From Bacteroidota bacterium (GTDB lineage Bacteria; Bacteroidota; Bacteroidia; UKL13-3), in the NCBI GenBank assembly GCA_947457395.1, contig CANGVA010000018.1, positions 1 through 42,557 of the forward strand: a stretch of DNA of 42,557 nucleotides. Direction: 5' to 3'. Made by a program: the position numbers and the translations under genes. Under the pieces are notes generated by a model that was not told the DNA's origin, ran no database searches, and saw only the letters and a program-made list of their open reading frames with translations. Every line of letters begins with the position of its first letter. The stretch's first letter is position 1. Shown here in pieces: positions 11,601 through 29,131 of this stretch.

Positions 11601-13523
11601 CTATCTATTTTTATTCTTTTTAAACCTGATATGCAAGTCGCCTAACTTGGCCTCATACGTAAACATACTATCTGATACTTGCTCCATACTGTCATTGTTT
11701 TCTATGGCTATTTGAACATCTATATCATCAACGGCCTCCGTTTCTGTATCCGTAACGTCAATTTCAATGGTGTCATCCGATTCTTCCGGCTCATCCTTGC
11801 AATCCAGACATTGTAAACCATTGTTTGTCATTAGAAATGTTGTTCCATGATAATAATATTGTTTCTTATTTTCGCTTCGGTTCATCATGGCAAGCACATA
11901 ATTATCTACCTTAATGATGGTTCCAACAGGAATGCGTAACTTAACCTGTATGTGCTGAAATTGATATTTTTGACCTTGAACAAAAAGCTTAGGGTTAAGG
12001 GTAATGGATGAATCAGTCTGTTGAAACGAATAATTTACCATCCTTGCCAATTCTGCTGCCTCTTCCTCATTTTCACCATGAGCTGTCTTCACAACATATG
12101 AGCTGATTGAATCATCTTTTGCTTGCTTAATAACAAGGCTTGTGGCGCTAATCCATAAGCCGTTTTCAACTTTATTGATGTCAAAGACCTCCTCTCCATG
12201 ATATGAAATTCGGATATCATCTGCTGTTGCAACGAGGTCTGATTCTTTGCCTGATAAATAAAGTGTATCAGGGCATACTAAGGTAGATACATGTTGCGTA
12301 AGTGTTTGTTCTTCCTTTATACTGTTAATAAATGCACCGGTTGCAAAAAAAAGTAATACCACACAAACAAGATCAACCAGCCCAAATGCAATTGCAAATG
12401 CACGTAACTTATAGCGCAAATTAAATAACAAGCGCACACCCAGCAAAATCAAAGAAAGGCAAACAGAAAAAACAAAAATTGCAATTGCCCAACAACTTAT
12501 AAGGTATAAGGTACCCTCACCGGTAAATAATTTTACCAAGGTTTTAAGTTCAGCTGCTTCTGCACCATTAAATATAAAAGCAAATAGCAATAACCCCAAC
12601 AAAATACCCATAAGAACCAGTAACAAGCCCAGAAATTTTCCAAATAATTTAATGATTGACCCCATTACCTGCGCAAGGGCGCTTACCCCGCGTACAGCTG
12701 TTTCTGCCCCCTTTTTAATTTGCTCATTGCTACCTTTAAATGTTTCACGCACTTTCCGCTCTATGCTACTCACATCAACCGGTTCTCCTTTCATTTGTAA
12801 TTTTTCTGCAGCTGTTTGCGCAGCAGGAATAATGATCCAAAGTATCAGGTAAAGCAAAAAACCTGTGCCAACAGCAAAAAACATTACCAAAAAGGTAATA
12901 CGCAACCAAACGGCATCTATACCCATATAGGAGGCAAGACCTGAGCAAACACCACCAAACATGCGCTGATCTTTATCTCTGTATAATCTTTTATTATTGC
13001 GGTTGCTATGGTCAGGTAATTCTGCGGGCGAAGCTTCCGGCATTACCACCCAAAGTAACAGATAAATAAAAATACCACTTCCAAACACAAAGAAAGATGC
13101 CATAAAAACCGCACGCGGTATAATAGGATCAATTTTAAAATAATTACCAATACCTGCACAAACACCACTTATAATTTTGGCACGTGGATCCCTGCGCAAT
13201 TTATCAGGAACTTGTCTGCTTGCTTCCTTTGCAGCATCATCAGTAACAGATGTTTTGTCATCGCCATCAATTTCTGAGGGATTACCCATTAAGGCAATTA
13301 CAGCTTCTACATCATTCAACTGAACGATGCGGTAGCGGTCTGTTATCTTTTGCTGAAGCACTTCTGCAATACGTGCTTCAATATCACTTATAATTTCTGC
13401 CGCCCCCGGTGTTGCTGCAAAATGCTTTCGCAACCCATCTATATAAACTTTAAGTTTATCATATGCTTGTTCATCTATAGTAAAGATGAAACCATTTAAA
13501 TTTATATTTACTACTTTATTCAT
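11601..13523 (-). CDS. PspC domain-containing membrane protein (two PspC domains)
   Basis: A 640-residue inner-membrane protein. After about 110 cytoplasmic residues come two consecutive PspC domains: residues about 112-165 (AKIISGVCAGIGNYFKIDP) and 178-235 (DQRMFGGVCSGLASYMGIDA), each with the GVC-G-A/G-Y pattern plus a hydrophobic helix. Further transmembrane helices lie at about 285-400, and the C-terminal third is a beta-rich domain without helices, ending in a charged tail. PspC proteins sense or respond to envelope stress. It is the last gene of a three-gene operon behind a PadR regulator (11-bp gap), an arrangement recurrent in Bacteroidota, suggesting that PadR controls it. Specific function is unknown. 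Confidence 0.9.
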   Translation of the reverse strand: MNKVVNINLNGFIFTIDEQAYDKLKVYIDGLRKHFAATPGAAEIISDIEARIAEVLQQKITDRYRIVQLNDVEAVIALMGNPSEIDGDDKTSVTDDAAKEASRQVPDKLRRDPRAKIISGVCAGIGNYFKIDPIIPRAVFMASFFVFGSGIFIYLLLWVVMPEASPAELPDHSNRNNKRLYRDKDQRMFGGVCSGLASYMGIDAVWLRITFLVMFFAVGTGFLLYLILWIIIPAAQTAAEKLQMKGEPVDVSSIERKVRETFKGSNEQIKKGAETAVRGVSALAQVMGSIIKLFGKFLGLLLVLMGILLGLLLFAFIFNGAEAAELKTLVKLFTGEGTLYLISCWAIAIFVFSVCLSLILLGVRLLFNLRYKLRAFAIAFGLVDLVCVVLLFFATGAFINSIKEEQTLTQHVSTLVCPDTLYLSGKESDLVATADDIRISYHGEEVFDINKVENGLWISATSLVIKQAKDDSISSYVVKTAHGENEEEAAELARMVNYSFQQTDSSITLNPKLFVQGQKYQFQHIQVKLRIPVGTIIKVDNYVLAMMNRSENKKQYYYHGTTFLMTNNGLQCLDCKDEPEESDDTIEIDVTDTETEAVDDIDVQIAIENNDSMEQVSDSMFTYEAKLGDLHIRFKKNKNR

Positions 13524-13534
13524 AGTGGTTTAAT

Positions 13535-13864
13535 TTATTTTTTTGATGTAGCCCGGTTAACAGCTTCAACAAGTTCATCCCAGGTACTGGCCAATTCTTT
13601 AAGGTATACTGTGCCTTCATCGGTTAGCTGAAAATATTTACGCGGAGGTCCCGACTTAGACTCTACCCACTGATAGCTCAGAAGATTTTCGTTTTTTAAC
13701 CGGGTTAGTAAAGGATACAGGGTGCCTTCTACCACAATCAATTTTGCCGCCTTTAACTCATCCAAAATATCTGATGCATATACCTCACCACGAGAGATAA
13801 TAGAGAGGATACAATATTCCAGAATCCCCTTTTTCATCTGGGCTTTTGAATTCTCAATAGCCAT
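13535..13864 (-). CDS. PadR family transcriptional regulator
   Basis: A 109-residue winged-helix protein of the PadR family. Hallmarks are MKKGILEYCILSIIS (helix 1), the recognition region VEGTLYPLLTRLKNENLL and the wing SGPPRKYFQLTDEG. The short C-terminal helix makes it a PadR subfamily-2 dimer. These repressors often regulate neighbouring membrane genes, here the PspC protein 11 bp downstream. The start codon lies two bases after the stop of the small secreted-protein gene, so all three genes are one transcript. A candidate operator is the inverted repeat at 14221-14262. Confidence 0.95.
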   Translation of the reverse strand: MAIENSKAQMKKGILEYCILSIISRGEVYASDILDELKAAKLIVVEGTLYPLLTRLKNENLLSYQWVESKSGPPRKYFQLTDEGTVYLKELASTWDELVEAVNRATSKK

Positions 13865-14307: not shown

Positions 14308-15768
14308 CTATTTAATTTCTATTATAAGAACACTTCCGGCAGATAATTGAAACTTGTTTCCTGATTTAGTTGCCTGTTGTGCATACAAAACAGTAGCATT
14401 TTTTGGCAATTTCAGCTGTAAATTCCCCGGAGCAAGCCGATGAATAATGAGGTATTGCTGTTGCTTATCGAGAAGTTCAAAGGCAATGCAACCGTCATAA
14501 GTGGTGGTATGTGTAACAAGTTTTCCACGTGAAAGAAAAGGATAATCATTGCGCAGTTTTAGCCATAGCCTGTAATAAGAAAAAAGGCTTTTATCATCGT
14601 TCATCTGTTTATCTAACGGTATAACCGTAGCTGAGGTAGTATGCACAGCTTTTTCCCAGCGTGTGTTGTATGCACTTTGCAGTCCCCATAAAAAAGGCTC
14701 ACGCCTGAGTTCATCAGGAAATTTACCCAGCATACCTATCTCTTCACCGTAATATAGAAACGGAATGCCTGGGAGTGTAAACAAAATAGCTATGGCTTGT
14801 TTCATCTGAGGTATATTATTATTTAGGATAGATGCATACCGGTCCTGATCATGATTGGTGATAAAAATGGCATCGGCATAATTTGGGTTATACGAACGAT
14901 AAAGTGCATGCATGCTAATTAACTTTTGAATGAAATCACCAGGCGTTGAGGTACTAACTGCTCTTAAAATGGCAGCCGACAAATCGAAATTAAAACAGGC
15001 ATCCATGCCATCTTTTAAATAAGCAGCTACAAGGCTATCTTTATTCCATACCTCACCTATAATAAATGCATCAGGATTAATTTGCTTTACATGCTTATGA
15101 AATTTATTCCACCAGCGCATGTTTTTCTCCGGTTCATGTGGTTCATAAATATGCTGTGCTGCATCAAGCCTAAAACCGTCTACACCTGCAGCAAGCCAAA
15201 ATGATGCAATTTTAAGAACTTCATTTTCTACTTCGGGGTTATCAAAATTTAAATCAGGCATTTGCTCCCAGAAAAAACCATAATACTTTTGCTGCGGATT
15301 TTTTAAATTGTTATACCAGCCTTTTGCTTTGGCTGTATCACTCCAAACATAATAATTGGCATAAGGCGCTTTACCATCACAAGCATTGATAAACCAAGGA
15401 TGCCTGCTGCTTGTATGATTAACAACCAAATCCATTACCACTTTTATATTTCGCGCATGGGCCTGAGCAAGGAGGTTTTTAAAATCGGCAATGGTTCCAT
15501 ATTCGGGATCAATAGCATAGTAGTCCATCACATCATACTTATGATAAGTTGGTGAAGGATGAAAAGGTGTGAGCCACAAACCACCTATGCCAAGCTGTTT
15601 TAAATAATCTAGCTTTTGCGTAATACCATTAATATCGCCTATACCATCTCCATCACCATCGGCAAAGGAGCGAACAAATATTTCATAAAATACGGGAGTT
15701 GGTTTATTGGATTGAGCAAAGGCGTTGGTGCAACATAACAGAAGCACTGAAATTATTACTTTTTTCAT
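14308..15768 (-). CDS. GH13 alpha-amylase, secreted
   Basis: A 486-residue alpha-glucan hydrolase of family GH13 with signal peptide MKKVIISVLLLCCTNAFAQ. The four classical regions are visible: DLVVNHTS (I), GFRLDAAQH with nucleophile Asp202 (II), IIGEVWN with acid/base Glu239 (III) and FITNHDQDR with Asp307 (IV). A C-terminal beta domain follows from about residue 400. It should act in the periplasm or at the surface on starch fragments, giving maltodextrins or glucose. It diverges from the MFS transporter gene, and the shared 65-bp gap contains the GTGTA-N5-TACAC palindrome at 15797-15811. Exact product specificity (amylase versus oligo-glucosidase) is not clear from sequence. Confidence 0.95.
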   Translation of the reverse strand: MKKVIISVLLLCCTNAFAQSNKPTPVFYEIFVRSFADGDGDGIGDINGITQKLDYLKQLGIGGLWLTPFHPSPTYHKYDVMDYYAIDPEYGTIADFKNLLAQAHARNIKVVMDLVVNHTSSRHPWFINACDGKAPYANYYVWSDTAKAKGWYNNLKNPQQKYYGFFWEQMPDLNFDNPEVENEVLKIASFWLAAGVDGFRLDAAQHIYEPHEPEKNMRWWNKFHKHVKQINPDAFIIGEVWNKDSLVAAYLKDGMDACFNFDLSAAILRAVSTSTPGDFIQKLISMHALYRSYNPNYADAIFITNHDQDRYASILNNNIPQMKQAIAILFTLPGIPFLYYGEEIGMLGKFPDELRREPFLWGLQSAYNTRWEKAVHTTSATVIPLDKQMNDDKSLFSYYRLWLKLRNDYPFLSRGKLVTHTTTYDGCIAFELLDKQQQYLIIHRLAPGNLQLKLPKNATVLYAQQATKSGNKFQLSAGSVLIIEIK

Positions 15769-15796: not shown

Positions 15797-15811
15797 GTGT
15801 ATTTTGTACAC
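15797..15811. promoter_or_regulatory. operator site A, GTGTA-N5-TACAC
   Basis: A perfect 5-bp inverted repeat with spacer TTTTG between the divergent amylase and MFS genes. It is the same motif as sites B (20501-20515) and C (23120-23134). A possible amylase -7 element, TATTATTG, abuts it on the minus strand (15796-15789), so here the bound protein would sit over the promoter spacer rather than upstream of it. Confidence 0.65.
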
Positions 15812-15833
15812 CTAATAGCATAATTTATAAACT

Positions 15834-17084
15834 ATGGTATCCACCACCACTACCAGATCTAATCAACCCATGCAGGAAGAGAAACCGGTTTCCAATGCAG
15901 GTATTGCCCTGGCTTCTTTAATGACACTGTTTTTTATGATGGGTTTTATTACCTGCCTGAATGACATACTCATTCCTTACATGAAAGTAATTTTTAAGCT
16001 TAATTATGCGCAGGCTAATTTTATAAATCTGTGTTTTTTTGGTGCGTATTTTTTTATGTCTATTCCATCCGGAATGCTCATTAACCGAATTGGTTATAAA
16101 AAGAGTATGATAGCAGGATTTGTTATTGCGGCCATTGGTTGTTTTTTATTTTACCCGGCAGCAGGTAGTAAAATTTACGGCTTGTTTTTGGCAGCACTTT
16201 TTATTCTGGCATCAGGCATTACTTTATTACAGGTAGCGGGCAACCCTTATGTAGCTGCATTGGGTCCTTCCTCCTCTTCTTCTGCGCGCCTTACGCTAAC
16301 ACAGGCCTTTAACTCAGTAGGTACTACCATTGCACCATATTTTGGCAGCATGCTCATCCTTTCAGGATTACCTAAAGATGTTTCGGTCATTGAGAATATT
16401 GACGTAAGTGCTGTGCAAAAACCTTATATATGGATTGGCTTATTACTAATTGCAATTGCGGCTATTTTAATGATGTTAAAATTACCGGTGATTCAACATG
16501 GCGGGAAACAACAATCATCAAATACTAAAAAAGCATGGCAATATCCGCACCTGGTTTTAGGTGCCATAGGTATTTTTTGCTATGTAGGCGCTGAAGTAGC
16601 AATTGGCAGTCATATTGTAAATTACTTGCAATTGCCTGAAGTAATGGGTATGCAGGCTGATGAGGCAGGTAAATACGTTTCATATTACTGGGGTGGTGCC
16701 ATGGTAGGGCGATTTATTGGCAGTTGGATTCTCAGTAAATTTAAGCCGGGAAACGTATTGGCATTTAACGCACTGATGGCTTTTGTATTGGTCATGATTT
16801 CTATTTTAAGTGGTGGCGCCACTGCCATGTGGAGTTTACTTGCTGTTGGCTTATTTAACTCCCTGATGTTTGCCACCATATTTACTTTAGCGGTTGATGG
16901 ATTGGGTTCACAAACGGATGAAGGTTCAGGTATTTTATGCACGGCTATTGTAGGTGGTGCACTTATACCCTTTTTATATGGAATTACCGGTGATATTTTT
17001 AGTTTAAAAACAGCATATTTGCTGCCGGCAATTTGCTATATTTATATTATTTATTACGGATTTAAAGGTTACAAACACTCATGA
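15834..17084 (+). CDS. MFS sugar transporter, FucP/GluP type
   Basis: A 416-residue, twelve-helix major facilitator protein of the fucose/glucose-galactose:H+ symporter family. The N-terminal block TLFFMMGFITCLNDILIPYM, with its Asn-Asp pair, and SIPSGMLINRIGYKKSMIAG are diagnostic; helix 4 contains ASGITLLQVAGNPYVA, also a family signature. It should move a monosaccharide, here most likely glucose, from periplasm to cytoplasm. An in-frame ATG at 15870 (MQEEKPVSN) is an alternative start that would leave more room for a promoter. The stop overlaps the start of the kinase gene by four bases, implying translational coupling. Confidence 0.92.
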   Translation: MVSTTTTRSNQPMQEEKPVSNAGIALASLMTLFFMMGFITCLNDILIPYMKVIFKLNYAQANFINLCFFGAYFFMSIPSGMLINRIGYKKSMIAGFVIAAIGCFLFYPAAGSKIYGLFLAALFILASGITLLQVAGNPYVAALGPSSSSSARLTLTQAFNSVGTTIAPYFGSMLILSGLPKDVSVIENIDVSAVQKPYIWIGLLLIAIAAILMMLKLPVIQHGGKQQSSNTKKAWQYPHLVLGAIGIFCYVGAEVAIGSHIVNYLQLPEVMGMQADEAGKYVSYYWGGAMVGRFIGSWILSKFKPGNVLAFNALMAFVLVMISILSGGATAMWSLLAVGLFNSLMFATIFTLAVDGLGSQTDEGSGILCTAIVGGALIPFLYGITGDIFSLKTAYLLPAICYIYIIYYGFKGYKHS

Positions 17085-17953
17085 TACTGATTGCAGACAG
17101 CGGTTCAACCAAAACAGATTGGGCTCTTACTCACCCGGAAAAAGGATTAATAAAGGTTTACCATACCATTGGTTACAATCCTTATTTTATAGATACTGAG
17201 TCAATCTTTTACTCCTTATCAGAAAATCTGGTTAAGGATTTTGACGCCTCTACTGTTACAGAGGTACATTTTTACGGTGCTGGATGCTCCACGCCAGAGA
17301 AGAAAGATATTGTTAGGAAAGCACTGGTAAGAACATTTACTAATGCCGAAGCCATTTTTGTGGGACATGATCTGTTAGGATCAGCCAGGGCGCTGCTGGG
17401 CGATAAAGAAGGTTTTGCTGCCATACTAGGTACTGGAGCTAATACCTGCATTTACAATGGCGATGATTGCGTGATGAATATTGATTCATTGGGTTATCTA
17501 CTGGGCGATGAAGGAAGCGGCAGTTATATAGGTAAAAAAATTGTACGTGATTTTATGCGTAAACGACTTGAACCGGAATTGCAGCAACGATTTAAAGAAC
17601 GCTTTCAGATTGAGAGTAATGAACAGATATTTCATACGCTTTACACCACACAATTCCCGAATAGATACCTTGCCAGCTTTTGCAAGTTTGCCGATGAGTA
17701 TTTAACACATCCTTATATTAAAAATAAGGTGCGCGACTCATTTAGAGATTTCTTTAAAAATCTGGTGAGTAAATATCCTGATTACAAAAACCACAGCTTT
17801 AATTGTGTAGGTTCTGTTGGCTATGTTTTTAGAGAAATACTGGAAGAAGTAGCAGTTAGCTACGATATGAAAGTGGGCAAGGTTATTCAATCACCCCTTG
17901 CCGACCTTGTTCAGTTTCATTTGCAGCGTGTAAAAAGTAAAACTACGGCATAA
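17081..17953 (+). CDS. BadF/BadG-type sugar kinase (annotated family: N-acetylglucosamine kinase)
   Basis: A 290-residue cytoplasmic kinase of the ASKHA superfamily. Phosphate-1 motif ADSGSTKTDWAL is at residues 5-16, phosphate-2 is AAILGTGANTCIYN near residue 112, and the adenosine region has LGDEGSGSYIGKK. Relatives are called N-acetylglucosamine kinases, but many Bacteroidota copies have no tested substrate. The gene overlaps the FucP-type transporter gene by four bases and sits in a starch locus, so a glucokinase role is attractive: transporter brings in glucose, kinase makes glucose 6-phosphate. That role is inference; the fold assignment is firm. Confidence 0.9.
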   Translation: MILIADSGSTKTDWALTHPEKGLIKVYHTIGYNPYFIDTESIFYSLSENLVKDFDASTVTEVHFYGAGCSTPEKKDIVRKALVRTFTNAEAIFVGHDLLGSARALLGDKEGFAAILGTGANTCIYNGDDCVMNIDSLGYLLGDEGSGSYIGKKIVRDFMRKRLEPELQQRFKERFQIESNEQIFHTLYTTQFPNRYLASFCKFADEYLTHPYIKNKVRDSFRDFFKNLVSKYPDYKNHSFNCVGSVGYVFREILEEVAVSYDMKVGKVIQSPLADLVQFHLQRVKSKTTA

Positions 17954-17985
17954 AAAAAAATCCTGCGTCTGCAGGATTTTTTTTT
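17952..17985. terminator. bidirectional rho-independent terminator
   Basis: AATCCTGC-gtct-GCAGGATT flanked by an A-run and a T-run, between the convergent kinase and GH31 genes. It can serve both strands. Confidence 0.9.
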
Positions 17986-17987
17986 GC

Positions 17988-20441
17988 TTACCAGCTGATG
18001 GTTATTTCATCCTTGTTATGCTCAGTTACAAATGAGCCTACTTCTGCTTTTTTGGCATCTATGCTTTTACCTATCGGATCAAACTGAGATACACCCGGCA
18101 TCATTTCCAATTGTGCAGTAGAAATATTCGCTGTTTTGCCATTAACCTTGATTGAAGCGTTGGCAGGGAAACCATGCATATAAAAACGCAAATACTTAAA
18201 CTTGGAAACGTGACTACCTTTAACTTTTGATACACTCAGCGTATTCCGTGATGGATCGTACACAAAATTTCTGGTTAGGAACTTACCATTGAGGTACTCG
18301 TACATATCACCCTGATCTTCGTAGTACTCAAATGTATTGGCTTGTTTGCCATAATAAAAATGAACAGCCAGGGTATCAGAAGGCTTTTCGCCTGCATGCT
18401 GCACAACGGTTTGCATAGGTATAATGCTACCGGCCTTTACATATACCGGCAACATTTCCATCGGTGTTTCTACATATAACTCGCGGTTGCCTTCATATTT
18501 CTCTTCAGTAAAAAACTGATACCACTCTCCTGCCGGCAAATACACCTTATTAATTTCTTTATAGCTCGTAACCGGAGCAATCATAATGCCGTGTCCAAAC
18601 ATATATTGGTTTTGGTACTTCCAATCATATATCATGGGGTCAAATGTATGGTTAATGGCAAGACTGCGTGCCACAGGCATTCCGTTTTTGGTTGATTCGT
18701 AAAACGAGCTGTACAGATAAGGCATCAAACGATACCGTAGCGAAATATAATTTCTTACAATTTCTTCCACTTTCTCGCCATAGCTCCACGGCTCACTATC
18801 TTTAGCATCTATCATTTTGTGGCTTCTGAAAAATGGACAGAAAGAACCCAGTTGCATCCAGCGGCAAAACAATTCCTTAGAAGCCTCGCCTGCAAAACCA
18901 CCCACATCATAACCTGCATTAGACACACCGCTTAATCCCAAACTATTTATAAGACGTACACCCGCCAGCATATGATCATCTTCAGGGCGGTTATCGCCTG
19001 TCCATATAGCTGAGTAACGTTGTATACCAGCGTAGGCTGCACGTGTTAAAATAAATGGCCTTTTACCATTCATTAGTTGTTTAGCTCCTTCATAGGTACT
19101 GCGCGACATTTGCAAGCCATACACATTGTGCCACTCGCGGTGCGATGCTTTACGGCCTTCAAAGTCGGCCTCAACCAAATCAGGAAAACGTTGCCCCCAG
19201 GTAGCAGGCTCATTCATGTCATTCCAAAATCCGTCAATTCCATCATTGATATATCCTGCAAAAGATTGCCCCCACCATTTTCTGGCTTTGGGTTTAGTAA
19301 AATCAGGGAAGTGACACCAGCCCGGCCAAACCTGACCGGTATAATTTGTCCCGTCAGGATACTTTAAGAACAATTCATCCTTCACACCTTCTTCATATGC
19401 TTTATACCCTTTTTCAACTTTAATGCCCGGGTCAACAATCACCACATTTTTAAAGCCCATACCTTCCAGTTCATCAAGCATTTTTTTTGGTTGCGGAAAA
19501 CGTTCATTATTCCAGGTAAATATTTTGTATTGATCCATATAATGGATATCAAAATAAATAACATCAGAGGGGATTTTTTTATCGCGAAAAGTCTTAGCCA
19601 GTGTAATTACCTCCTTATCTGGATAGTAGCTGTAACGACATTGCTGAAAGCCAATGCTCCATAAGGATGGCATTTCCATGCGGCCTGTTAATGCAGTATA
19701 TGATTCAATTATGCCTGCTACATTAGCTGAGGAAAACAGGTAGTAGTTCATTTCTCCATCTTCGGCAGTAAATGAGCTAAAGCGATTATTGGAAGCTCCA
19801 AAATTAAAATGCGATTTAAACGTATTGTCCAAGAACAAACCATAAACCACGTTGTGGTGCACACCCATATAAAAAGGTATAGAAGCATAAATAGGATCTC
19901 CGTTTGATGGATAGGCAAAATAATCGGTATTCCAGTTGGTAAAACCTTCCCCTCTTCTATTCAGGTTACCTGTTTTTTCTCCAAGTCCTATGAATTTCTC
20001 ATCGTCCTGCATTTTTTTATACGTACTCACTTCTTCTCCAATCCATCCGGTTCCAAATGCAGATTCATCTTCATTCAGCAACTCACCTTTATTATTATAA
20101 AGTGAAATGCGTGCAGGATTCTTTGTTATGAGAAGATAGCATGAGTCGGTGCGTAATTCATAAGATGTACCTTTGTCGGATAATTTGATAAGTCCTGCAA
20201 CAGGTTTAGCTTGAACAGCATAACTAAAATCCTCAAAGCCATTTGTTTTACTGATTTGAACGCGCAAGCAAACAGCGGAGTAAGCACTTATACGAATATT
20301 TCCGGATGGGGTGTAAAAATGGATGAATGGATCCTTGTTTTCAAAATTTTTTATATTACCCAAGGATTGATGAAGCTTGGGCTGCGCCTGATTTTGAGTT
20401 AAAACAAAAAGAGCTGTAATGAGGCTTATAATTTTTTTCAT
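17988..20441 (-). CDS. GH31 alpha-glucosidase, secreted
   Basis: An 817-residue family 31 glycoside hydrolase with signal peptide (MKKIISLITALFVLTQNQAQ). An N-terminal beta-sandwich (about residues 40-250) precedes the catalytic barrel: nucleophile Asp408 in FWNDMNEPATWG, acid/base Asp483 in IWTGDN, then GVSNAGYDVGGF and FCPFFRSH. Beta domains follow from about residue 640, including PVYVKAGSIIP. The expected reaction is release of glucose from the non-reducing end of maltodextrins in the periplasm, the role SusB plays in Bacteroides. The divergent neighbour is the Nudix-type regulator, with operator site B between them. A related xylosidase or transferase activity cannot be excluded. Confidence 0.95.
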   Translation of the reverse strand: MKKIISLITALFVLTQNQAQPKLHQSLGNIKNFENKDPFIHFYTPSGNIRISAYSAVCLRVQISKTNGFEDFSYAVQAKPVAGLIKLSDKGTSYELRTDSCYLLITKNPARISLYNNKGELLNEDESAFGTGWIGEEVSTYKKMQDDEKFIGLGEKTGNLNRRGEGFTNWNTDYFAYPSNGDPIYASIPFYMGVHHNVVYGLFLDNTFKSHFNFGASNNRFSSFTAEDGEMNYYLFSSANVAGIIESYTALTGRMEMPSLWSIGFQQCRYSYYPDKEVITLAKTFRDKKIPSDVIYFDIHYMDQYKIFTWNNERFPQPKKMLDELEGMGFKNVVIVDPGIKVEKGYKAYEEGVKDELFLKYPDGTNYTGQVWPGWCHFPDFTKPKARKWWGQSFAGYINDGIDGFWNDMNEPATWGQRFPDLVEADFEGRKASHREWHNVYGLQMSRSTYEGAKQLMNGKRPFILTRAAYAGIQRYSAIWTGDNRPEDDHMLAGVRLINSLGLSGVSNAGYDVGGFAGEASKELFCRWMQLGSFCPFFRSHKMIDAKDSEPWSYGEKVEEIVRNYISLRYRLMPYLYSSFYESTKNGMPVARSLAINHTFDPMIYDWKYQNQYMFGHGIMIAPVTSYKEINKVYLPAGEWYQFFTEEKYEGNRELYVETPMEMLPVYVKAGSIIPMQTVVQHAGEKPSDTLAVHFYYGKQANTFEYYEDQGDMYEYLNGKFLTRNFVYDPSRNTLSVSKVKGSHVSKFKYLRFYMHGFPANASIKVNGKTANISTAQLEMMPGVSQFDPIGKSIDAKKAEVGSFVTEHNKDEITISW

Positions 20442-20466
20442 GTTGATTTATATTTTTATCGCGTCA

Positions 20467-20496
20467 CAATGATACACAACATCTATTAATTATCAA
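20467..20496 (-). promoter_or_regulatory. promoter of the GH31 gene
   Basis: On the minus strand TTG (20496-20494), 19-bp spacer, TATCATTG (20474-20467), which is seven of eight to TAnnTTTG. It lies 25 bp before the ATG, and operator site B ends four bases upstream of the -33 element. Confidence 0.65.
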
Positions 20497-20500
20497 ATAA

Positions 20501-20515
20501 GTGTACAGAATACAC
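20501..20515. promoter_or_regulatory. operator site B, GTGTA-N5-TACAC
   Basis: A perfect 5-bp inverted repeat with spacer CAGAA. Its centre (20508) is 34 bases from the first base of each flanking -7 element and 12 bases from each -33 element, so it is exactly midway between two divergent promoters. The flank CAAATAA before GTGTA is identical in site C. Confidence 0.75.
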
Positions 20516-20519
20516 CAGT

Positions 20520-20549
20520 TTGGATGAAAATAAATTTAAATTAATTTTG
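20520..20549 (+). promoter_or_regulatory. promoter of the Nudix-type regulator gene
   Basis: TTG (20520-20522), 19-bp spacer, TAATTTTG (20542-20549), a full match to TTG-N19-TAnnTTTG. The ATG follows at 20566. Operator site B lies just upstream, so the gene is probably autoregulated. Confidence 0.75.
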
Positions 20550-20565
20550 CAGTACCATTTGCACC

Positions 20566-21279
20566 ATGAAAAAAAGTACCTTTCGTAAACACCTTTCGGT
20601 TGATTGTGTGATATTCGGATATGATGAGAGTAATAACAAGCTGGAAGTTCTGCTTATTGAGCAGAAAGATCCGGCCATGCAATCCGCACATAAATACCGT
20701 CCACAATTTGCTATTCCGGGAGATTTGATAGATGAGGCCGAAAGTTTAGATGAAGCTGCCACCCGTGTATTAAAAGAACTCACACATGTAGAGGGCTTAC
20801 AATTGAAACAATTTCAGACGTTTGGTGACCCCATGCGTGTAAAACAAGAAAAAGACAAAGAATGGCTGGCCTTTTACCGTTCAGATCCGTATGCAAGGGT
20901 TGTTACCATAGCCTACTACACGCTGGTAAGAAAAGAAATGATCAGACCGGTACCGGGTTCTTTTGCCAAAAATGTAGTTTGGAAGAATGTGAAGCGTGTG
21001 CCACCACTTGCGTTTGACCATAACCTGATTGTAAAAACAGCACTAGATGATATAAGAACCCGCATGCATTATAACCATATTGCAGAGCAGTTGCTCCCGA
21101 AGAAATTTACATTAAGACAATTGCAGAACTTATACGAAGTTGTATTAACCACCACATTTGATAAACGCAATTTCATTAAGCGATTCAAGAAAGATGAAGA
21201 ATTGATTGAGCTGGGAGAAAAGCAAAAAGGAGTATTACATAAACCTGCACAGCTTTACTCATTTAAGACCCGCAAATAA
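20566..21279 (+). CDS. Nudix-domain winged-helix transcriptional regulator (NrtR/AraR type)
   Basis: A 237-residue regulator. The N-terminal Nudix fold spans about residues 8-150 (CVIFGYDESNNKLEVLLIEQ) and the C-terminal winged helix about 160-237 (FTLRQLQNLYEVVLTTTFDK then HKPAQLYSF, typical of NrtR-family proteins). The Nudix box is degraded: after GDLIDEAESLDEAATR the usual REUxEE core reads RVLKEL, so hydrolase activity should be lost and the domain probably senses a ligand. A Nudix-type regulator, AraR, is known to control arabinose use in Bacteroides. Its position inside a starch locus and next to a repeated palindrome makes it the likely regulator of these genes, responding to a sugar or sugar phosphate. 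Ligand and sign of control are unknown. Confidence 0.92.
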   Translation: MKKSTFRKHLSVDCVIFGYDESNNKLEVLLIEQKDPAMQSAHKYRPQFAIPGDLIDEAESLDEAATRVLKELTHVEGLQLKQFQTFGDPMRVKQEKDKEWLAFYRSDPYARVVTIAYYTLVRKEMIRPVPGSFAKNVVWKNVKRVPPLAFDHNLIVKTALDDIRTRMHYNHIAEQLLPKKFTLRQLQNLYEVVLTTTFDKRNFIKRFKKDEELIELGEKQKGVLHKPAQLYSFKTRK

Positions 21280-21304
21280 AAAACCAACCTTTATAAAAAC
21301 AAAA

Positions 21305-21323
21305 AGCCCGGCAATGCCGGGCT
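21305..21323. terminator. bidirectional rho-independent terminator
   Basis: AGCCCGGC-aat-GCCGGGCT preceded by an A-run and followed by TATTTT, between the convergent regulator and starch-binding protein genes. Confidence 0.9.
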
Positions 21324-21342
21324 ATTTTGCTAAAAAAACTAA

Positions 21343-23061
21343 CTACTGAACTATAAGTTTCATTACTCTGGTTTCACCGCTATTATCGGTTAAACGTACA
21401 AAGAACAGACCATTGCCCAATTCTTCTTTCAAGAGTTTAATTTCTGTTGCCTGTGTGTTAATGTTTTTTATCACACGGCCTGCGATATCAGCTACAAGTA
21501 CATTCACTTCTCCTTTAACTGAATTCAGATTAAGTATTGCAAACTCTTTGGTAGGGTTTGGATATAACACAACCTGATTAAAAGCGCCTGTAATTTTATT
21601 TAAACCAACAGGAGCGATAGTTAAACACTTATTAAACACAAAACCAAGCACTACCGCGTTTGTATCGGTTCTGCTAAATTTACGATTAAAACCACCTAAT
21701 CCATTTGGCTCTAAGCAAGCACGAGAATTGGTATCAGGATAAGTTTCTTCGCTTGCAGCAAGTGAAGAATCACCATTTAAAAATTTGTAGTTAAAGTTAG
21801 CAGGGCAAACGTTATTTACGGTAATTGCAAATTTTCCAGGCTCGCCTGCAACAGGGCTTAGGCGTAATGCACCAGCTTGCCAGTTAGGGCTTTGGAAGGT
21901 TCCCATTACATAAATTCTGCCTTGGGCATCCGGAACTTCGTTAGACATATCAATTTTAAAAGTAATACGTGAAGGAGCAGGTTTAGGAACGCAAGCAGCA
22001 GTTGTGCTAAAGCAATGCAATGCAATTGTAGAGTCTGACTTAAATACCATAACTCTGTTTGCAATACCTTCCCAGTTTGTATTACCACCTTTATGATAAC
22101 GGAATTTGAATTCAACTTCACCAGAGTCCATCTGAATAGTTTTGCTGTAAACTTTAGAAGTACCAACTTGACTCAAGGTAGTTCCACTACCCCATGCACC
22201 AGGTAATTTACCACCAGCAACCGTTACTGAATCATAACCGCCATCACAATCAGAGTTGGACATGTCTATACGGAATGTAATATTATATTTAGGAAGCGGA
22301 GCAGCCGGGCAAGCAGTACATGAAGCAAAACAAACTTTTGGTAAGGCTTGATCTGAAGTACCAACTGTTAGGCTTCTGTTGCCATTTACTGCGCAACCTG
22401 AAGGAACCGATTCAGGAACACTAGGGCTGTTCCAATCATTTCCGTTTACATACTTATACTCGTATGAACCTGCTGCAAGACATACAATAACTTCGTATAA
22501 TTTGTTAGAGGGATATAAATTAGCCATACCTGTAGAACCCGGATTCCATCCTTGAAGGCTGCCTGCCAAATGAACTCCTTTATTACTTACAGCAGCTTCT
22601 TTAGATAAGTCTACTGCAAAACGAACTGCATACTGACCTGCAGGAGCATTACCACCAAACAAGTAAGCAGGTATATTGGTGGTATCATTAGCGGTTGAGT
22701 CGATATAAAACCAGCGGTTAGAGTTGGTCTCTCCGTTGTTTGGATGACCTTTTTGGCTGAGTGCAGGAACATTTTCAGCATCTCCCCAAGCATTACCGTT
22801 AATGAATTTGAACTCATAATAACGTCCGGCAGGGATATCTACAATAATTGAATAGATGTTTGAAGTACCAACCTTTGATAGTATGGTGGCTCCCGGAGTC
22901 CAATCATTTGGGAATCCTGCAGCATTTTGAAAATTGCCTGCAACCGATAGAGCAGGAGATACTGACGGTTGTCCGGTCATATCAACCTGAAACCTGACTT
23001 TTTTTGCAAATACACCTGAAAACATTCCAAGTGCAGCAGTTAATAGTAGTAATTTTTTCAT
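21343..23061 (-). CDS. secreted multi-module starch-binding-like protein with T9SS sorting domain
   Basis: A 572-residue secreted protein with signal peptide (MKKLLLLTAALGMFSGVFA). It has four tandem modules of about 110 residues (roughly 21-135, 142-250, 257-360, 365-480). Each begins RFQVDM, RFAVDL, TFRIDM or TFKIDM, then has a G-F/LQ-W-type strand, a KVGTSNIYS-like strand and YEFKFINGNAW-like end, the pattern of CBM20/CBM48-type starch-binding or E-set folds. The C-terminal 80 residues (VVLYPNPTKEFAILNL to MKLIVQ) are a type A T9SS sorting domain, so it is exported and probably surface-attached. No catalytic domain is present. It likely captures starch for the SusCD system. Divergent from susC with operator site C between. 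Confidence 0.85.
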   Translation of the reverse strand: MKKLLLLTAALGMFSGVFAKKVRFQVDMTGQPSVSPALSVAGNFQNAAGFPNDWTPGATILSKVGTSNIYSIIVDIPAGRYYEFKFINGNAWGDAENVPALSQKGHPNNGETNSNRWFYIDSTANDTTNIPAYLFGGNAPAGQYAVRFAVDLSKEAAVSNKGVHLAGSLQGWNPGSTGMANLYPSNKLYEVIVCLAAGSYEYKYVNGNDWNSPSVPESVPSGCAVNGNRSLTVGTSDQALPKVCFASCTACPAAPLPKYNITFRIDMSNSDCDGGYDSVTVAGGKLPGAWGSGTTLSQVGTSKVYSKTIQMDSGEVEFKFRYHKGGNTNWEGIANRVMVFKSDSTIALHCFSTTAACVPKPAPSRITFKIDMSNEVPDAQGRIYVMGTFQSPNWQAGALRLSPVAGEPGKFAITVNNVCPANFNYKFLNGDSSLAASEETYPDTNSRACLEPNGLGGFNRKFSRTDTNAVVLGFVFNKCLTIAPVGLNKITGAFNQVVLYPNPTKEFAILNLNSVKGEVNVLVADIAGRVIKNINTQATEIKLLKEELGNGLFFVRLTDNSGETRVMKLIVQ

Positions 23062-23117
23062 ATGTTTTTAATTCAATTGTAATTCGAATAAAAATAATTT
23101 TTTAGAAAAAAACAAAT

Positions 23118-23136
23118 AAGTGTAGGAAATACACTT
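23118..23136. promoter_or_regulatory. operator site C, AAGTGTA-N5-TACACTT
   Basis: The best copy of the motif: 7-bp perfect arms with spacer GGAAA, in the 170-bp gap between the starch-binding protein and susC genes. The 12-base stretch CAAATAAGTGTA is identical to site B, including the CAA that acts as -33 element (TTG on the minus strand) in front of the GH31 gene. Confidence 0.75.
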
Positions 23137-23231: not shown

Positions 23232-26200
23232 ATGAAAGGAACCTTACTCACACTGCTGCTGGCAACAATCTTTGCAAGGGTTGGAGCTCAAACCATTTCA
23301 GGTAAAGTAACCGATAACCAAAACCAGCCGCTTATTGGCGTTGTGGTGATGGCTGAAGGTACTCAAAAAGGCGGAGTTACCGATATTGACGGCAACTACC
23401 GCATTGAGGGGCTTGAACCCGGAAAGTACAAAATCAAATTTCAGTACACAGGACTCAAAACAGAGTATAAAACGATTGAGATTGGCAATGCCACCATCAG
23501 TTTAAACCTTACCATGAAAGAAGACCCCAAACAACTGGATGATGTAGTTGTAGTAGGATATGGCGTGCAGCGCAGAAGGGAGCTAACTTCTTCTATTGCC
23601 AAAATATCCACAAAGGAATTAAATGACTTGCCTGTACAAAGTTTTGAGCAGGCTATGCAAGGTAAACTTGCTGGTGTAGCAGTTACACAAGGTAGCGGTG
23701 TAGCAGGCTCTCCATCTATTGTACGAATAAGAGGAATCAGCTCTATTAGTGCCAGCGGAGACCCGCTTTATGTAATTGATGGAATTCCTATTACACAAAG
23801 TTATGCCGTTTATGGCAACAGCGGTGGATTCAATTTTAACCCACTTGCCACCATTAACCCCAACGATATTGAATCGGTAGAAGTATTAAAAGATGCAGCC
23901 GCAACTGCCATTTATGGTTCAAGGGGTGCAAACGGTGTAATCATGATTACTACACGAAGGGCTAAAAAAGGGAAATTTAATGTAACTTATAATGGTCAGG
24001 TTGGATTCTCCACACCAACAGCTCGACCAAGGACAGTAAGCAGAGATGAATTCTTGCAACTATATGAAGAGGCCTGGATTAATGATGGCAGGGTTGGTAA
24101 ACCGGATTTATCTGTTGGAGGTATCACAGGTATCACATGGGATGAAGCCCGTAATAACAATACCGACTGGTATAGTGCAACCACCCAAACCGGTGTTAAG
24201 CATCAGCATGATATTACCATTTCAAAAGGTTGGGAGAATTTTAATATTTTCTCCAGTTTCTCTTACCTTAAAAACGAAACCTTTATAAGAGGAAACTCTT
24301 ATGAAAGAGCCGGAGCACGCATTAATATGGATTATCAGTTATTAAAAAACCTACGTGCTTCATTTGGAACTTCGTTCACTTCAGGACTTAATAATAGAAT
24401 TTACAGCGGTTGGTCCGGTGGGTTTGGACTTGTCATGTCTTCTGCCCTTCCTATATATCCTATCAGAAACCCTGATGGTACATTTTTTACATTCAACAAT
24501 TCAGACGCAGCTTTCAGAACCAATCCGGTAATGATGCAGGAACTATATAAATGGGAAACTGAGGAGTTAAGAAGTATCAATTCATTAAGCTTGGATTATG
24601 AACCTATAAAAAATCTAACAGTGAGGGTGCAGGGTAATTATGATTTTCAAAATGTTGCCGATGACACTTACGCACCTGCTGAATTATTGCGCACAACCCG
24701 AGCGGATACAACAGGGCTTGCCAGAAGAGACGCTAATTATACCAATAACTATAACTACACGATTCAGGCAAATTATAAGTATGATATTAATAAGCATAAC
24801 AATATCATGATTACCGGTGGATTTGAAAGGCAGCATTCTGTTACTAATGGCTTCACTTTAGACCAGCGAAATGCAACCGGTTTACTTCAAAAGAATGATT
24901 CCCTATCTCCTGACTATCTCAAACTAAATAAATTACAGCAAGAGTGGATTTTTGAACGTTACTTCACACGTATCAATTACAGTTTATGGCAGAGATATTA
25001 TGCACAAGTATCATTAAGTTATGATGGCTCCTCTCGTTTTGGTGCAAATAACCGCTATGGTTTCTTTCCTGCAGTTTCTGCAGGTTGGAATATTTCTGAC
25101 GAAAGTTTTCTATCAGGTAACAAATATATCAGTTATCTGAAATTACGGACCTCCTATGGTAAGGCAGGAAATTCTGATTTTGACAACAATGCCCGTTTCG
25201 GATTCTTCCAAAGATCAACCAATACCCCATATAACGGCCAACCAATTTTATTCCCTACCAAACTGGAGAACCAAAACCTACGCTGGGAAACCTCATGGAC
25301 ATTTAATGCAGGCATTGATTTTGGTTTATTCAATGACCGTATTACCGGTTCCGTTGAATACTATGACAAGCGAAGCTCCGATATTATCATGAGGTTAAAT
25401 ATTGACCCATCAAATGGTTTCAGCGAATATTTTGACAATGTGGGTTCTATCAGAAATCATGGCGTTGAATTATCGCTTAAATCAAACAATGTGATGGGTA
25501 GAAACTTTAAATGGACAACCCAGTTTGTAATAGCCAGAAACCTGAATGAACTAACCAGTACCGGCAACTATACAGAAGAAGCGGTAAGTGGCGGAACAAA
25601 TGATACCCGCGTAGTGGTTGGAAGTCCTGTAGGTACATTTTATTTGGTGCGCTTTTCAAGGGTTGATAAAGAAACCGGAAGACCCGTATACCTGGATAAA
25701 AACGGTAATGAAACATTTACATGGGATCCTGATAACCGCGTACCGGTTGGCTCCATTCTACCAAAAGCAACAGGAGGTTTAACCAATACGTTTCAATATA
25801 AAAACTGGGATTTGAGCGTGCTGTTTGTATTTCAGATTGGTGGCAATATTTATGATGCCTCAGCAAAACGTCAGTTGGGTGTAGTTTCATTTTGGAACAT
25901 GCGTCCGGAAATTGCAGAAAGATGGCAGCGCCCCGGAGATGATGCCACATTCCCTCGTTTAACACTAGACGCATCAACTTATGGCTTACCTAACTACTGG
26001 CAATACAATACACCGATGTGGCTATATGATGCAAGTTTTGTTCGCCTAAGAAATCTATCGATAGGATATAACCTGCCCGCTGCATTTGCCAAAAAACTCA
26101 AAATAGGTTCGGCACGTATTGGTTTTATCGGAACAAACTTATTGGTGTTTACCAACTACCCAGGACTAGACCCTGAAATTGCACGTGATGGTGAAGGAAA

Positions 26201-26297
26201 TATCAACCAGTCCAGAAACATGCAGGCGCAAAACACATATTACCTGAATGCGCCTCAGGAAAAAACCTATAATTTCCAAGTTACTGTAACCTTTTAA
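23232..26297 (+). CDS. SusC/RagA family TonB-linked outer membrane transporter
   Basis: A 1021-residue TonB-dependent transporter that imports oligosaccharides, here probably maltodextrins. Order: signal peptide (about 1-19), carboxypeptidase-regulatory-like domain (ISGKVTDNQNQPLIGVVV, 21-38), TonB-box region and SusC signature DDVVVVGYGVQ near residue 107, plug (SIVRIRGISSISASGDPLYV; VEVLKDAAATAIYGSRGANG) and a 22-strand barrel ending in TYNFQVTVTF. Length is typical for SusC. It starts a four-gene operon with susD (11-bp gap) and two further genes, preceded by operator site C. Confidence 0.97.
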   Translation: MKGTLLTLLLATIFARVGAQTISGKVTDNQNQPLIGVVVMAEGTQKGGVTDIDGNYRIEGLEPGKYKIKFQYTGLKTEYKTIEIGNATISLNLTMKEDPKQLDDVVVVGYGVQRRRELTSSIAKISTKELNDLPVQSFEQAMQGKLAGVAVTQGSGVAGSPSIVRIRGISSISASGDPLYVIDGIPITQSYAVYGNSGGFNFNPLATINPNDIESVEVLKDAAATAIYGSRGANGVIMITTRRAKKGKFNVTYNGQVGFSTPTARPRTVSRDEFLQLYEEAWINDGRVGKPDLSVGGITGITWDEARNNNTDWYSATTQTGVKHQHDITISKGWENFNIFSSFSYLKNETFIRGNSYERAGARINMDYQLLKNLRASFGTSFTSGLNNRIYSGWSGGFGLVMSSALPIYPIRNPDGTFFTFNNSDAAFRTNPVMMQELYKWETEELRSINSLSLDYEPIKNLTVRVQGNYDFQNVADDTYAPAELLRTTRADTTGLARRDANYTNNYNYTIQANYKYDINKHNNIMITGGFERQHSVTNGFTLDQRNATGLLQKNDSLSPDYLKLNKLQQEWIFERYFTRINYSLWQRYYAQVSLSYDGSSRFGANNRYGFFPAVSAGWNISDESFLSGNKYISYLKLRTSYGKAGNSDFDNNARFGFFQRSTNTPYNGQPILFPTKLENQNLRWETSWTFNAGIDFGLFNDRITGSVEYYDKRSSDIIMRLNIDPSNGFSEYFDNVGSIRNHGVELSLKSNNVMGRNFKWTTQFVIARNLNELTSTGNYTEEAVSGGTNDTRVVVGSPVGTFYLVRFSRVDKETGRPVYLDKNGNETFTWDPDNRVPVGSILPKATGGLTNTFQYKNWDLSVLFVFQIGGNIYDASAKRQLGVVSFWNMRPEIAERWQRPGDDATFPRLTLDASTYGLPNYWQYNTPMWLYDASFVRLRNLSIGYNLPAAFAKKLKIGSARIGFIGTNLLVFTNYPGLDPEIARDGEGNINQSRNMQAQNTYYLNAPQEKTYNFQVTVTF

Positions 26298-26308
26298 TCA
26301 AACGCAAC

Positions 26309-27739
26309 ATGAAAAGAAATAAATTATCAGCATTTCTATACAGTAGCATCTTCGCAACAGTCCTCATGCTTAGTGCATGCGAAAAAAATCTTGATATAGA
26401 ATTAGAAACTGGAGAAGGAGCATTAACGCCTGATAGTGCCATTAGAAATAAAGATGATATGCAGGCCCTCCTAAACTCATGTTATGATGCATGCGCTAAC
26501 ATGATGAACGGCCAGTTTCAGGTAGCCTCAGATTTACTGGCAGATGATGTAAGCAAGCCAACTAATAATGATGGTTTTCTTACCGGAATATACAACAGAC
26601 AGAGTGATCAGTTTAACTCTTTCATTGGTGGTGCTTTTGCCCAACCTTACTTCACCATCTATCGTTGCAATGTTATGGATTTGTATTACGACAAGCTTAA
26701 TCTGAGTATTGATGAAAAAAATCGCTTTCAGGGTGAAGCAGCATTCCTCAGGGCGCTTTGCCACTTTGAGGCATTGCGTTTGTGGGCTCAGCCGTATGGC
26801 TATACTCCTGACAATTCTCACCTAGGTATTATTCTCAGAAAAAGAGCTAGAAACGAAGCTATTCCTCGTTCAACTGTTAAAGAAAGTTATGATTACATCA
26901 TCAGCGAATTGCAGGGTGCCATTAGCAAATTACCTGAACAAAACGGTGTTTATGTAAATAAAGATGGTGCTAAAGCATTGTTGGCAAAGGTTTACTTTCA
27001 GATGAATGATTATGCAAATGCTTTACCACTGCTTGATGAGGTAATCAATTCCAATAAATATCAGTTAAGCGATAGTTTAAACAGATATATCAGGGCAAAT
27101 GTAGCCAATGAAATAATTTTTGGATTTGTTAGCGGTAATAACGCTTACGAAACCGGCAATAGAAGCGGTGAGTTTAAAGACAAATACAGGAATGATTTGC
27201 AAGGTGATAATGTATTACCAGTCTTATGCTTCTCTGCTGAACTTGCAGGTTTACTAAGCAGCGACACGAGCGACCAGCGTAGTAAAATGACTAGAACCTA
27301 TTTCAAAGGTCAATCAAACCAGCAACTGGCCACAACCAAATTTAACCTGAATAATTTTGCAGCACCATACCTGCATCTAACCGATTTAAAACTGATGCGT
27401 GCCGAAATCTTGGCCATACAAGGCAATTCAGCTGGGGCCATTGCTGATTTAACCCCAATTGTAAAAAGGGCCTATAAACCAAGTGCATCAAAAGAAACTT
27501 ATATTGCATCCTTGAGTGGTAATGCCCTAGTAGATGAAATAAGACTTCAACGCAGATTGGAAATGAATTGTGAAGGAGACAGGCTACATCAGGTAAAAAG
27601 AATTGGCGTAAGCAAAGGTCCAAACAACCTAATGGTAAGAGGTGTGCCATGGAATTGCAATGGTATGATTCTTCAGTTTCCTGCCTCTTGCGGTACTTCC
27701 AGAGTATTTCAGTTTAACCCAACAACTGTTTGTAATTAA
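26309..27739 (+). CDS. SusD/RagB family starch-binding lipoprotein
   Basis: A 476-residue surface lipoprotein, lid partner of the SusC channel. Lipobox LMLSACEKN puts the lipidated cysteine near residue 24. SusD features are the N-terminal NKDDMQALLNSCYDACANMM, TPR-like helices (AKALLAKVYFQMNDYANALP), LTDLKLMRAEILAIQGN and the C-terminal VDEIRLQRRLEMNCEGDR. Substrate binding is inferred to be alpha-glucan from the neighbouring amylase, alpha-glucosidase and starch-binding genes. It lies 11 bp behind susC. Confidence 0.96.
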   Translation: MKRNKLSAFLYSSIFATVLMLSACEKNLDIELETGEGALTPDSAIRNKDDMQALLNSCYDACANMMNGQFQVASDLLADDVSKPTNNDGFLTGIYNRQSDQFNSFIGGAFAQPYFTIYRCNVMDLYYDKLNLSIDEKNRFQGEAAFLRALCHFEALRLWAQPYGYTPDNSHLGIILRKRARNEAIPRSTVKESYDYIISELQGAISKLPEQNGVYVNKDGAKALLAKVYFQMNDYANALPLLDEVINSNKYQLSDSLNRYIRANVANEIIFGFVSGNNAYETGNRSGEFKDKYRNDLQGDNVLPVLCFSAELAGLLSSDTSDQRSKMTRTYFKGQSNQQLATTKFNLNNFAAPYLHLTDLKLMRAEILAIQGNSAGAIADLTPIVKRAYKPSASKETYIASLSGNALVDEIRLQRRLEMNCEGDRLHQVKRIGVSKGPNNLMVRGVPWNCNGMILQFPASCGTSRVFQFNPTTVCN

Positions 27740-27747: not shown

Positions 27748-28260
27748 ATGAAAAATAAAATTTTAAAACTCATGCTATGTATGCTTCCACTGTTGTGGAG
27801 CGCCTGCGAGAAACCGTATGATGAAGATAAAAAAATAGGTCCGCCACTTTACAGCCCTGATCAGCTATTAACAATTATCAGCGGCAAATGGCAAATGCAA
27901 TCTGCTAAACAGGTGGATGAGAAATCATTGACCAAAGAAACAATAGATATAACAGATTTCTTTACCCAGGAAACCGGATCCAACAATCCAACTATTGAGT
28001 TTAAAGCAGACAAAACATTTATTGCTGATACTGCTGGGGTAGCAGTAAATTATTTTGGTGTAACGTCAGGTAAATGGGTATTTGATGACCCCACCTACCC
28101 TACCAAAATAAATTTGAGTGATGCAAATGATCAAGTTATTGGCAGTATTTCTATAGGAACCAATCTGTTGGGAGCAAATCCAAAATTGCTCTATACCAAA
28201 ACATCAATGTGCGGATCTGATAAAGCATTTACTTTTAATATTGAATTCTTAAAAAAATAG
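27748..28260 (+). CDS. small lipoprotein of the starch locus (lipocalin-like, possibly DUF5004)
   Basis: A 170-residue lipoprotein with lipobox LLWSACEKP. The remainder reads as a lipocalin-like beta barrel, with ISGKWQMQSAKQ, IEFKADKTF and TSGKWVFDD strands, the pattern of Bacteroidota lipocalin-like or DUF5004 proteins that follow susCD genes. It starts eight bases after susD and so belongs to the same operon. A binding or assembly role at the surface is plausible; no ligand can be named. The DUF5004 label is from memory and unverified. Confidence 0.7.
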   Translation: MKNKILKLMLCMLPLLWSACEKPYDEDKKIGPPLYSPDQLLTIISGKWQMQSAKQVDEKSLTKETIDITDFFTQETGSNNPTIEFKADKTFIADTAGVAVNYFGVTSGKWVFDDPTYPTKINLSDANDQVIGSISIGTNLLGANPKLLYTKTSMCGSDKAFTFNIEFLKK

Positions 28261-28264
28261 CGCC

Positions 28265-29131
28265 ATGAAAAAAATTATATTCAGCATTCTTAATATCTGC
28301 TTTTATCTCTCAACCATGGGGCAAGCTGCTTGGGTAGAGCCTGAAAATCCGGATGTAACAAAGAAAATCAGGATCTACTGTAATATTGCTAAAGCCACCT
28401 CAGCCAGTGCAGATGGCATGAAAAGTAATTCTGACGGCCCCTTCTACATCTGGACATGGAACCCGAACGAAGCGCGCGTTGATTCGCTGCTTAATGGCTC
28501 CGGTGACAAACCTTGGAAAAATAGTAATGAAACCTTACGCATGACCAAAGATCCGGATAAAGGTGCGAACGTTTGGTATTATGAAATGGTTCCCGTTCTA
28601 TTCTATGGTGTTGATGCAAATACTGTATACGCAAAAGGCATTTCTTTTCTTGTAAAACCCAAAGATGGCGGTGGTTATGGAGATCCCGATTCTAAAACAG
28701 AAGACTTTAATTTGCCAATTACTCCACCCAAGTTAAACCGTGGTATTGTGTATGCTGTACCAGGAACCATATTTGAAAATGAGATAACGAGCCTCATTTA
28801 TGATAATCCGCAAGAGCCAAAAACAACCATGCAGAATCTGCCGGATGGTGAGGCTTATATGCATATGATTGCTACTATTGAAGATACAGCTACACTTGCA
28901 CGCAGCACCATTGAACCTGCCAAGTTTTTTAAAGTACAGGAAAACCCAAAGTTGCAAATGAAAAAGATGACTGATGGCAGGTTTAAGATAACCATGATAC
29001 CCAGACGCTTCTTTAATATTCCTAACGGATCGAGACTGGTAGAAGTTGAAGCAACAGTAAGAAAGAAAACCTACAACAGCTCAGACGACCAAACCAATGA
29101 GAAAAATAAGTTGAAAGCAGGTTGTCAATAG
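28265..29131 (+). CDS. secreted protein of the starch locus, unknown family
   Basis: A 288-residue secreted protein with a signal of about 20 residues (ICFYLSTMGQAAW). I do not recognise it firmly; it could belong to the DUF4961-like group that accompanies DUF5004 proteins in some PULs. It opens with AAWVEPENPDVTKKIRIYCN, a strand-rich E-set-like start, and contains GPFYIWTWNPNE and VWYYEMVPVLFYG, aromatic segments such as are common in glycan-binding surfaces. It starts four bases after the lipoprotein gene and is the last gene of the operon before a terminator. Positionally it takes the place of SusE/SusF. Confidence 0.65.
   Translation: MKKIIFSILNICFYLSTMGQAAWVEPENPDVTKKIRIYCNIAKATSASADGMKSNSDGPFYIWTWNPNEARVDSLLNGSGDKPWKNSNETLRMTKDPDKGANVWYYEMVPVLFYGVDANTVYAKGISFLVKPKDGGGYGDPDSKTEDFNLPITPPKLNRGIVYAVPGTIFENEITSLIYDNPQEPKTTMQNLPDGEAYMHMIATIEDTATLARSTIEPAKFFKVQENPKLQMKKMTDGRFKITMIPRRFFNIPNGSRLVEVEATVRKKTYNSSDDQTNEKNKLKAGCQ

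Follow-up and report, generated by a model that had tools for sequence, protein, structure and literature searches.

Three divergent intergenic regions of a starch-utilization locus in a Bacteroidota bacterium carry the palindrome GTGTA-N5-TACAC, and one of them adjoins the gene of a Nudix-type regulator. Our analysis of the contig (42,557 nucleotides, referred to here as the window) and of the rest of the genome indicates that these palindromes are very probably operators for a dimer of this NrtR-family regulator, which would control its own gene together with an alpha-glucan regulon that includes unlinked amylases, and whose degenerate Nudix domain would act as a sugar sensor.

Palindromes and genes of the starch locus

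Exact, strandless matches to GTGTA-N5-TACAC are located at 15797–15811 (operator 1, GTGTATTTTGTACAC), at 20501–20515 (operator 2, GTGTACAGAATACAC) and at 23120–23134, the last one within a full extended palindrome at 23118–23136 (operator 3, AAGTGTAGGAAATACACTT). The sequence-only reading had reported these three intergenic sites and the differences between their spacers, and both observations hold, but it missed a fourth exact copy at 23674–23688 (likewise strandless), within susC. The four copies in the window compare with 0.04 expected by chance, and this number was reached in 0 of 100 shuffles. The susC-internal copy corresponds to the codons for GVAVTQ, and wobble-position differences abolish the motif in orthologues with an identical or almost identical protein; hence, it was rejected as an operator, regarded as a coding coincidence and left outside the regulon.

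Operator 1 separates a secreted GH13 alpha-amylase, identified by the domain search (14308–15768, minus strand), from an MFS transporter of the glucose/galactose GluP type (15834–17084, plus strand; TIGR01272, 344 bits at a cut-off of 203), which is followed by a BadF/NagK-like sugar kinase (17081–17953, plus strand). Operator 2 lies between a GH31 alpha-glucosidase with a signal peptide read from the sequence (17988–20441, minus strand) and the regulator (20566–21279, plus strand). Operator 3 lies between a SusE/F-like starch-binding protein with X25/CBM20/CBM48-type modules and a T9SS tail (21343–23061, minus strand) and a SusC-type TonB-dependent transporter (23232–26297, plus strand), downstream of which are encoded a SusD-type lipoprotein with a weak SusD match (26309–27739, plus strand) and DUF5004 and DUF4961-like proteins (27748–29131, plus strand), which form the distal part of the susCD operon and are conserved in relatives. 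The BadF/NagK-like kinase is the sole candidate hexokinase of the genome. Its relatives of known structure are annotated as kinases of GlcNAc or MurNAc; because no kinases of the ROK and Glk families were found in the near-complete genome, and no second kinase of its own type, it is likely to be a glucokinase. Just beyond the amylase there is a PadR-family regulator (13535–13864) next to a PspC-domain membrane protein gene, a pair (together 11601–13864) apparently unrelated to the starch locus. The Nudix protein can accordingly no longer be called the sole transcription factor of the locus, as had been proposed from the sequence alone.

The Nudix-type regulator and its recognition helix

The regulator (237 aa) consists of a degenerate Nudix domain followed by an NrtR/AraR-type winged helix, and all its domain scores exceed the cut-offs (PF21906: 74.5 bits, cut-off 27; PF00293 NUDIX: 27.4, cut-off 21.1; AraR_C: 30.4). 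The best solved relatives are AraR from B. thetaiotaomicron and NrtR from Shewanella; the AlphaFold model (mean pLDDT 85) matches AraR with Z-scores of 20–21 over 203–206 residues (21 for 5BS6) and NrtR (3GZ5) with a Z-score of 18.5. The Nudix box reads R67-V-L-K-E-L in place of the canonical R-E-U-x-E-E and is thus degenerate, a feature shared by other family members. Judged by the domain profiles and the predicted structure, this is a genuine NrtR/AraR-type regulator, in agreement with the class originally assigned to it, and both the protein search and the family search returned a single copy in the genome.

In the AraR–DNA crystal structure, K179, R180, N181 and K184 touch the GTGT half-site, and the two half-sites are seven bases apart (PMC4666351). 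According to the sequence alignment, these residues correspond to K200, R201, N202 and K205 in the recognition helix of the regulator, D199-K200-R201-N202-F203-I204-K205. Moreover, the operators gel-shifted with AraR include GTGTATTTGATACAC, an exact GTGTA-N5-TACAC, as well as GTGTAAAAAAGACAC (PMC4666351). A dimer of the regulator would therefore be expected to bind GTGT-N7-ACAC operators via AraR-like recognition residues.

The same association is seen among homologues, a set collected in part with the DKRNF pattern: the full eight-base core, counted within 350 bp upstream or in the first 100 bp, accompanies 74 of 94 homologues with the KRN helix and 1 of 22 with other helices, counts that ignore kinship, and is found in 0 of 118 in-gene control stretches. 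Mapping of the helix type against the motif on the tree yielded three well-supported independent contrasts, on average 2.4 of 3 being in the expected direction, which is not significant alone. The spacing is specific: in the 21 loci surveyed around homologues, GTGT-N7-ACAC was counted 34 times, while each other spacing from 2 to 13 occurs 2–6 times. In one case (L163:3454–4182), the helix of the homologue contains NRNK in place of KRNK and GCGTA-N5-TACGC is present upstream; this pair may represent a changed recognition code.

Sites across the genome and in relatives

Pattern searches of the genome (2.54 Mb, 34 contigs, 99.96% complete) revealed only six exact copies of GTGTA-N5-TACAC: the four of the window, described above, and two that fall within coding sequences resembling murC and nuoM. 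When up to one mismatch was allowed, the extended palindrome was found at four sites, namely operator 3, one site in coding sequence and two sites on another contig (C3:73262 and C3:76178), which end 41 and 24 bp ahead of the start codons of two amylases. These amylases are secreted and contain CBM53/CBM25 and CBM48 modules, and genes for CBM20 proteins come after them. Since there are just three GH13 genes in the genome (one in the window and two on C3), each with a site, the motif marks all of them. Among the relaxed matches inspected elsewhere (two on contigs C29 and C31 were left out), nearly all are in coding sequence; one match in apparently non-coding DNA (C11:36134) looks like a chance occurrence. 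Outside the window, good non-coding sites were found at one place only, in the promoters of the two remaining alpha-amylase genes. The genome search thus adds just two amylase genes and not the many copies at unrelated genes that the sequence-only reading had named as evidence against itself. The data support a predicted regulon of three amylases, GH31, SusC/D, the starch-binding proteins, the GluP-type transporter, the candidate hexokinase and the regulator's own gene.

Relatives that have an orthologous locus (regulator identity 66–93%) carry sites at the GH31/regulator and starch-binding-protein promoters. The position of operator 2 is conserved in loci L052, L055, L056 and L058–L063, with ATGT in L057; operator 3 is also conserved in relatives, and operator 1 is conserved in the amylase/transporter gap of a same-genus genome (L052:15096). 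The aligned sites read AAGTGTA-N5-TACACTT, with TGT invariant in each arm and the outer G nearly so; relatives share the core GTGT-N7-ACAC between A/T-rich flanks and differ in the fifth base of each arm. For orthologues of the first C3 amylase, a site is present at the amylase or the next gene in both regulator-bearing genomes (G001 and G015), while neither of the two genomes without the regulator (G003 and G006) has one. In G015 it is a perfect palindrome, and in G001, which belongs to the same genus, the second site of the C3 amylase locus is intact and the first is degenerate. The numbers are small and in the predicted direction, and support the proposal that the amylase sites track the presence of the regulator.

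Two alternative explanations of the palindromes themselves deserve consideration. The arms are just five bases long, and one could regard the sites as chance occurrences or structural repeats such as hairpins or terminators, but this is exceedingly improbable in view of the conserved positions, the sites at unlinked amylase genes, the specific spacing and the failure of all 100 shuffles to produce four copies; a purely accidental origin was rejected on the shuffle statistics and the spacing specificity. The palindromes could also be read by another transcription factor, with the Nudix protein as a bystander. The PadR-family regulator is nearby and binding by the Nudix protein is a prediction, yet this explanation too is very unlikely, as the operator type and the contact residues match AraR exactly, the sites track the regulator across genomes and one operator adjoins the regulator gene. 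The Nudix-type regulator as the predicted reader of the three sites, the central proposal of the sequence-only reading, is thus supported by the recognition residues, the AraR operator layout, conservation and the content of the regulon.

On the phylogenetic tree the regulator belongs to a well-supported clade of 25 rows, separate from BtAraR, the latter grouping with the second regulators of L127 and L130. Neighbours of its members and of more distant homologues include phosphofructokinase (pfkA), GAPDH (gapA), BadF kinases, GH65, beta-phosphoglucomutase and maltose-type transporters, as well as SusCD, GH13 and G6PDH/6PGL/Edd/Eda (zwf-pgl-edd-eda); such sugar-gene neighbours were found for 73 KRN-type homologues, and Pedobacter and Mucilaginibacter have the unit pfkA-BadF-gapA. 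Together with the shared operator, these neighbours suggest a phylum-wide regulator of alpha-glucan and glucose utilization. A more far-reaching scenario is speculative and on balance doubtful: through one conserved operator, a Bacteroidota-wide branch of NrtR proteins that sense cytoplasmic glucose would join starch capture at the outer membrane to central glycolysis (pfkA, gapA, hexokinase and Entner-Doudoroff genes), and in the window's clade the operator would have shifted upstream of the core promoters, with conversion of an ancestral repressor into an activator. In two loci (L066:2304–3761 and L067:9575–11046), two Nudix regulators of different branches are encoded in tandem next to BadF, GH31 and GH13 genes, and a single GTGT-N7-ACAC site precedes the tandem. 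In L082 and L083, members of a second regulator clade (helix DKSNF) are accompanied by a GPH-type transporter and beta-glucan-type hydrolases, and no GTGT-N7-ACAC site was found there.

Control, effector and known systems

Bacteroidota promoters are characterized by TTTG near -33 and TAnnTTTG at -7 (PMC7366714). The predicted promoter of the regulator gene (20519–20549, plus strand) comprises TTTG (20519–20522), 19 bp and TAATTTTG (20542–20549), while the GH31 promoter is predicted as TTTG-19-TATCATTG; operator 2, through which the regulator would control its own gene, is midway between these divergent promoters, centred at -45 from both predicted starts. Promoter scores at the GH31/regulator loci, which are related to each other, beat 500 of 500 shuffles. 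Eight of 10 such loci (the window and seven others; the placement in L056 and L057 does not fit) have the operator at -45 to -62 relative to each of the two predicted starts, usually clear of the -33 box, and the placement is similar for the predicted promoters of the starch-binding protein and the first C3 amylase. Operator 1 overlaps or abuts both core promoters, as the amylase/transporter intergenic region comprises only 65 bp, and these promoters are weakly predicted. In distant homologues the operator is often located downstream of the predicted start, from +7 to +21, and over all homologues the operator–promoter distances form a broad mixed distribution, consistent just in the window's clade.

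As operator 2 is just upstream of the -33 boxes at both divergent promoters, we lean slightly towards activation as the mode of control in the window's clade. Nearly as plausible is that the same protein works on the same sites as an AraR-style repressor, the apo dimer occupying the operators until glucose or maltose releases it and the genes are induced. Ligands abolish DNA binding by AraR and by NrtR proteins of the NAD type (PMC4666351), the downstream operators of the distant homologues are in a repressor position, and the overlap of operator 1 with the predicted promoters suits repression better than activation; against this stand the upstream operators in most GH31/regulator loci and the similar arrangement at the starch-binding protein and the first C3 amylase. 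What the regulator senses is a separate question, and the motif by itself does not identify the effector, because the same operator serves NAD-type and arabinose-type relatives. Sensing of an NAD-related nucleotide, e.g. ADP-ribose, as in classical NrtR, would tie starch use to the redox state. Family and fold are shared with classical NrtR, and a homologue with the same operator (L090) adjoins NAD-salvage genes, but the ADP-ribose contacts of SoNrtR are replaced in the regulator (K76 by L72, N43 by D35 and R41 by Q33; compared with PMC4666351), the NCBIfam family of ADPR-responsive NrtR proteins (NF050029) yields only 84.7 bits at a cut-off of 400, the locus contains no NAD genes and the predicted sites are at starch genes only; we consider such sensing unlikely.

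Judging from the pathway logic of the locus genes, the proposed sugar-sensing Nudix domain most likely responds to free D-glucose in the cytoplasm or to a closely related metabolite, whose binding would most likely alter DNA binding, as in AraR. Compared with the arabinose pocket of AraR, R34 is replaced by Q33, F49 by L54 and G48 by D53, H152 and F150 are kept, and the equivalent of R86 is ambiguous. The L090 regulator (9584–10357), an NAD-type member, has two GTGT-N7-ACAC sites and a nicotinamide phosphoribosyltransferase-like gene nearby. As the operator is thus shared by a homologue among NAD-salvage genes, the operator type is old and the sensed ligand appears to have changed.

The closest characterized system is BtAraR (BT0354; PDB 5BS6, 5DDG and 5DEQ), the NrtR-family L-arabinose regulator (PMC4666351), which like the window's regulator combines a Nudix-like sensor with a winged helix, the DKRNFxK helix and a GTGT-N7-ACAC operator, and whose regulon joins SusCD, hydrolases, a transporter and catabolic genes. 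The regulator differs from it by an identity of about 34%, approximately 15 extra residues ahead of the RVV strand, starch/glucose genes in place of ara genes (none of which were seen at the starch locus) and an operator upstream of -33. It thus shares the DNA contacts and the operator expected of a BtAraR orthologue, but neither the arabinose pocket nor the tree grouping with an ara context. BtXylR (BT0791) is a predicted NrtR-family xylose regulator (PMC3878776); compared by description, it is likewise an NrtR-family sugar regulator of Bacteroidota, with xylose genes as targets. Shewanella NrtR (PDB 3GZ5, 3GZ6 and 3GZ8) has the same fold, domain order and degenerate Nudix box, but controls NAD metabolism, has QGKSF in the helix in place of DKRNF, and its ADP-ribose contacts are not conserved in the regulator. 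A starch or glucose regulator of the NrtR type was not found in the searchable literature, a scope outside which most subscription journals fall. The NrtR family itself is known from regulators of arabinose, xylose and NAD genes, and within the literature searched the starch pathway is a new assignment for it.

What is known of starch control in Bacteroidota comes mainly from gut Bacteroides and their membrane-bound SusR. SusR of B. thetaiotaomicron is a membrane-spanning activator with a periplasmic maltose sensor and a direct-repeat motif with a long spacer (PMC3878776). Like the regulator described here, it controls susC/D and starch-degrading genes, but the two are unrelated, the latter being a 237-aa Nudix/wHTH protein that lacks the membrane-bound features of SusR and has palindromes in place of direct repeats, in line with the earlier suggestion of a different control circuit. 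If our prediction is correct, a soluble Nudix-type sensor would be a second solution to starch control, spread over many free-living Bacteroidota. With the operator and the recognition residues known, the regulons of many genes annotated as 'NUDIX hydrolase' become predictable, and the predicted sites also point to candidate hexokinases of the BadF type, which has been little studied.
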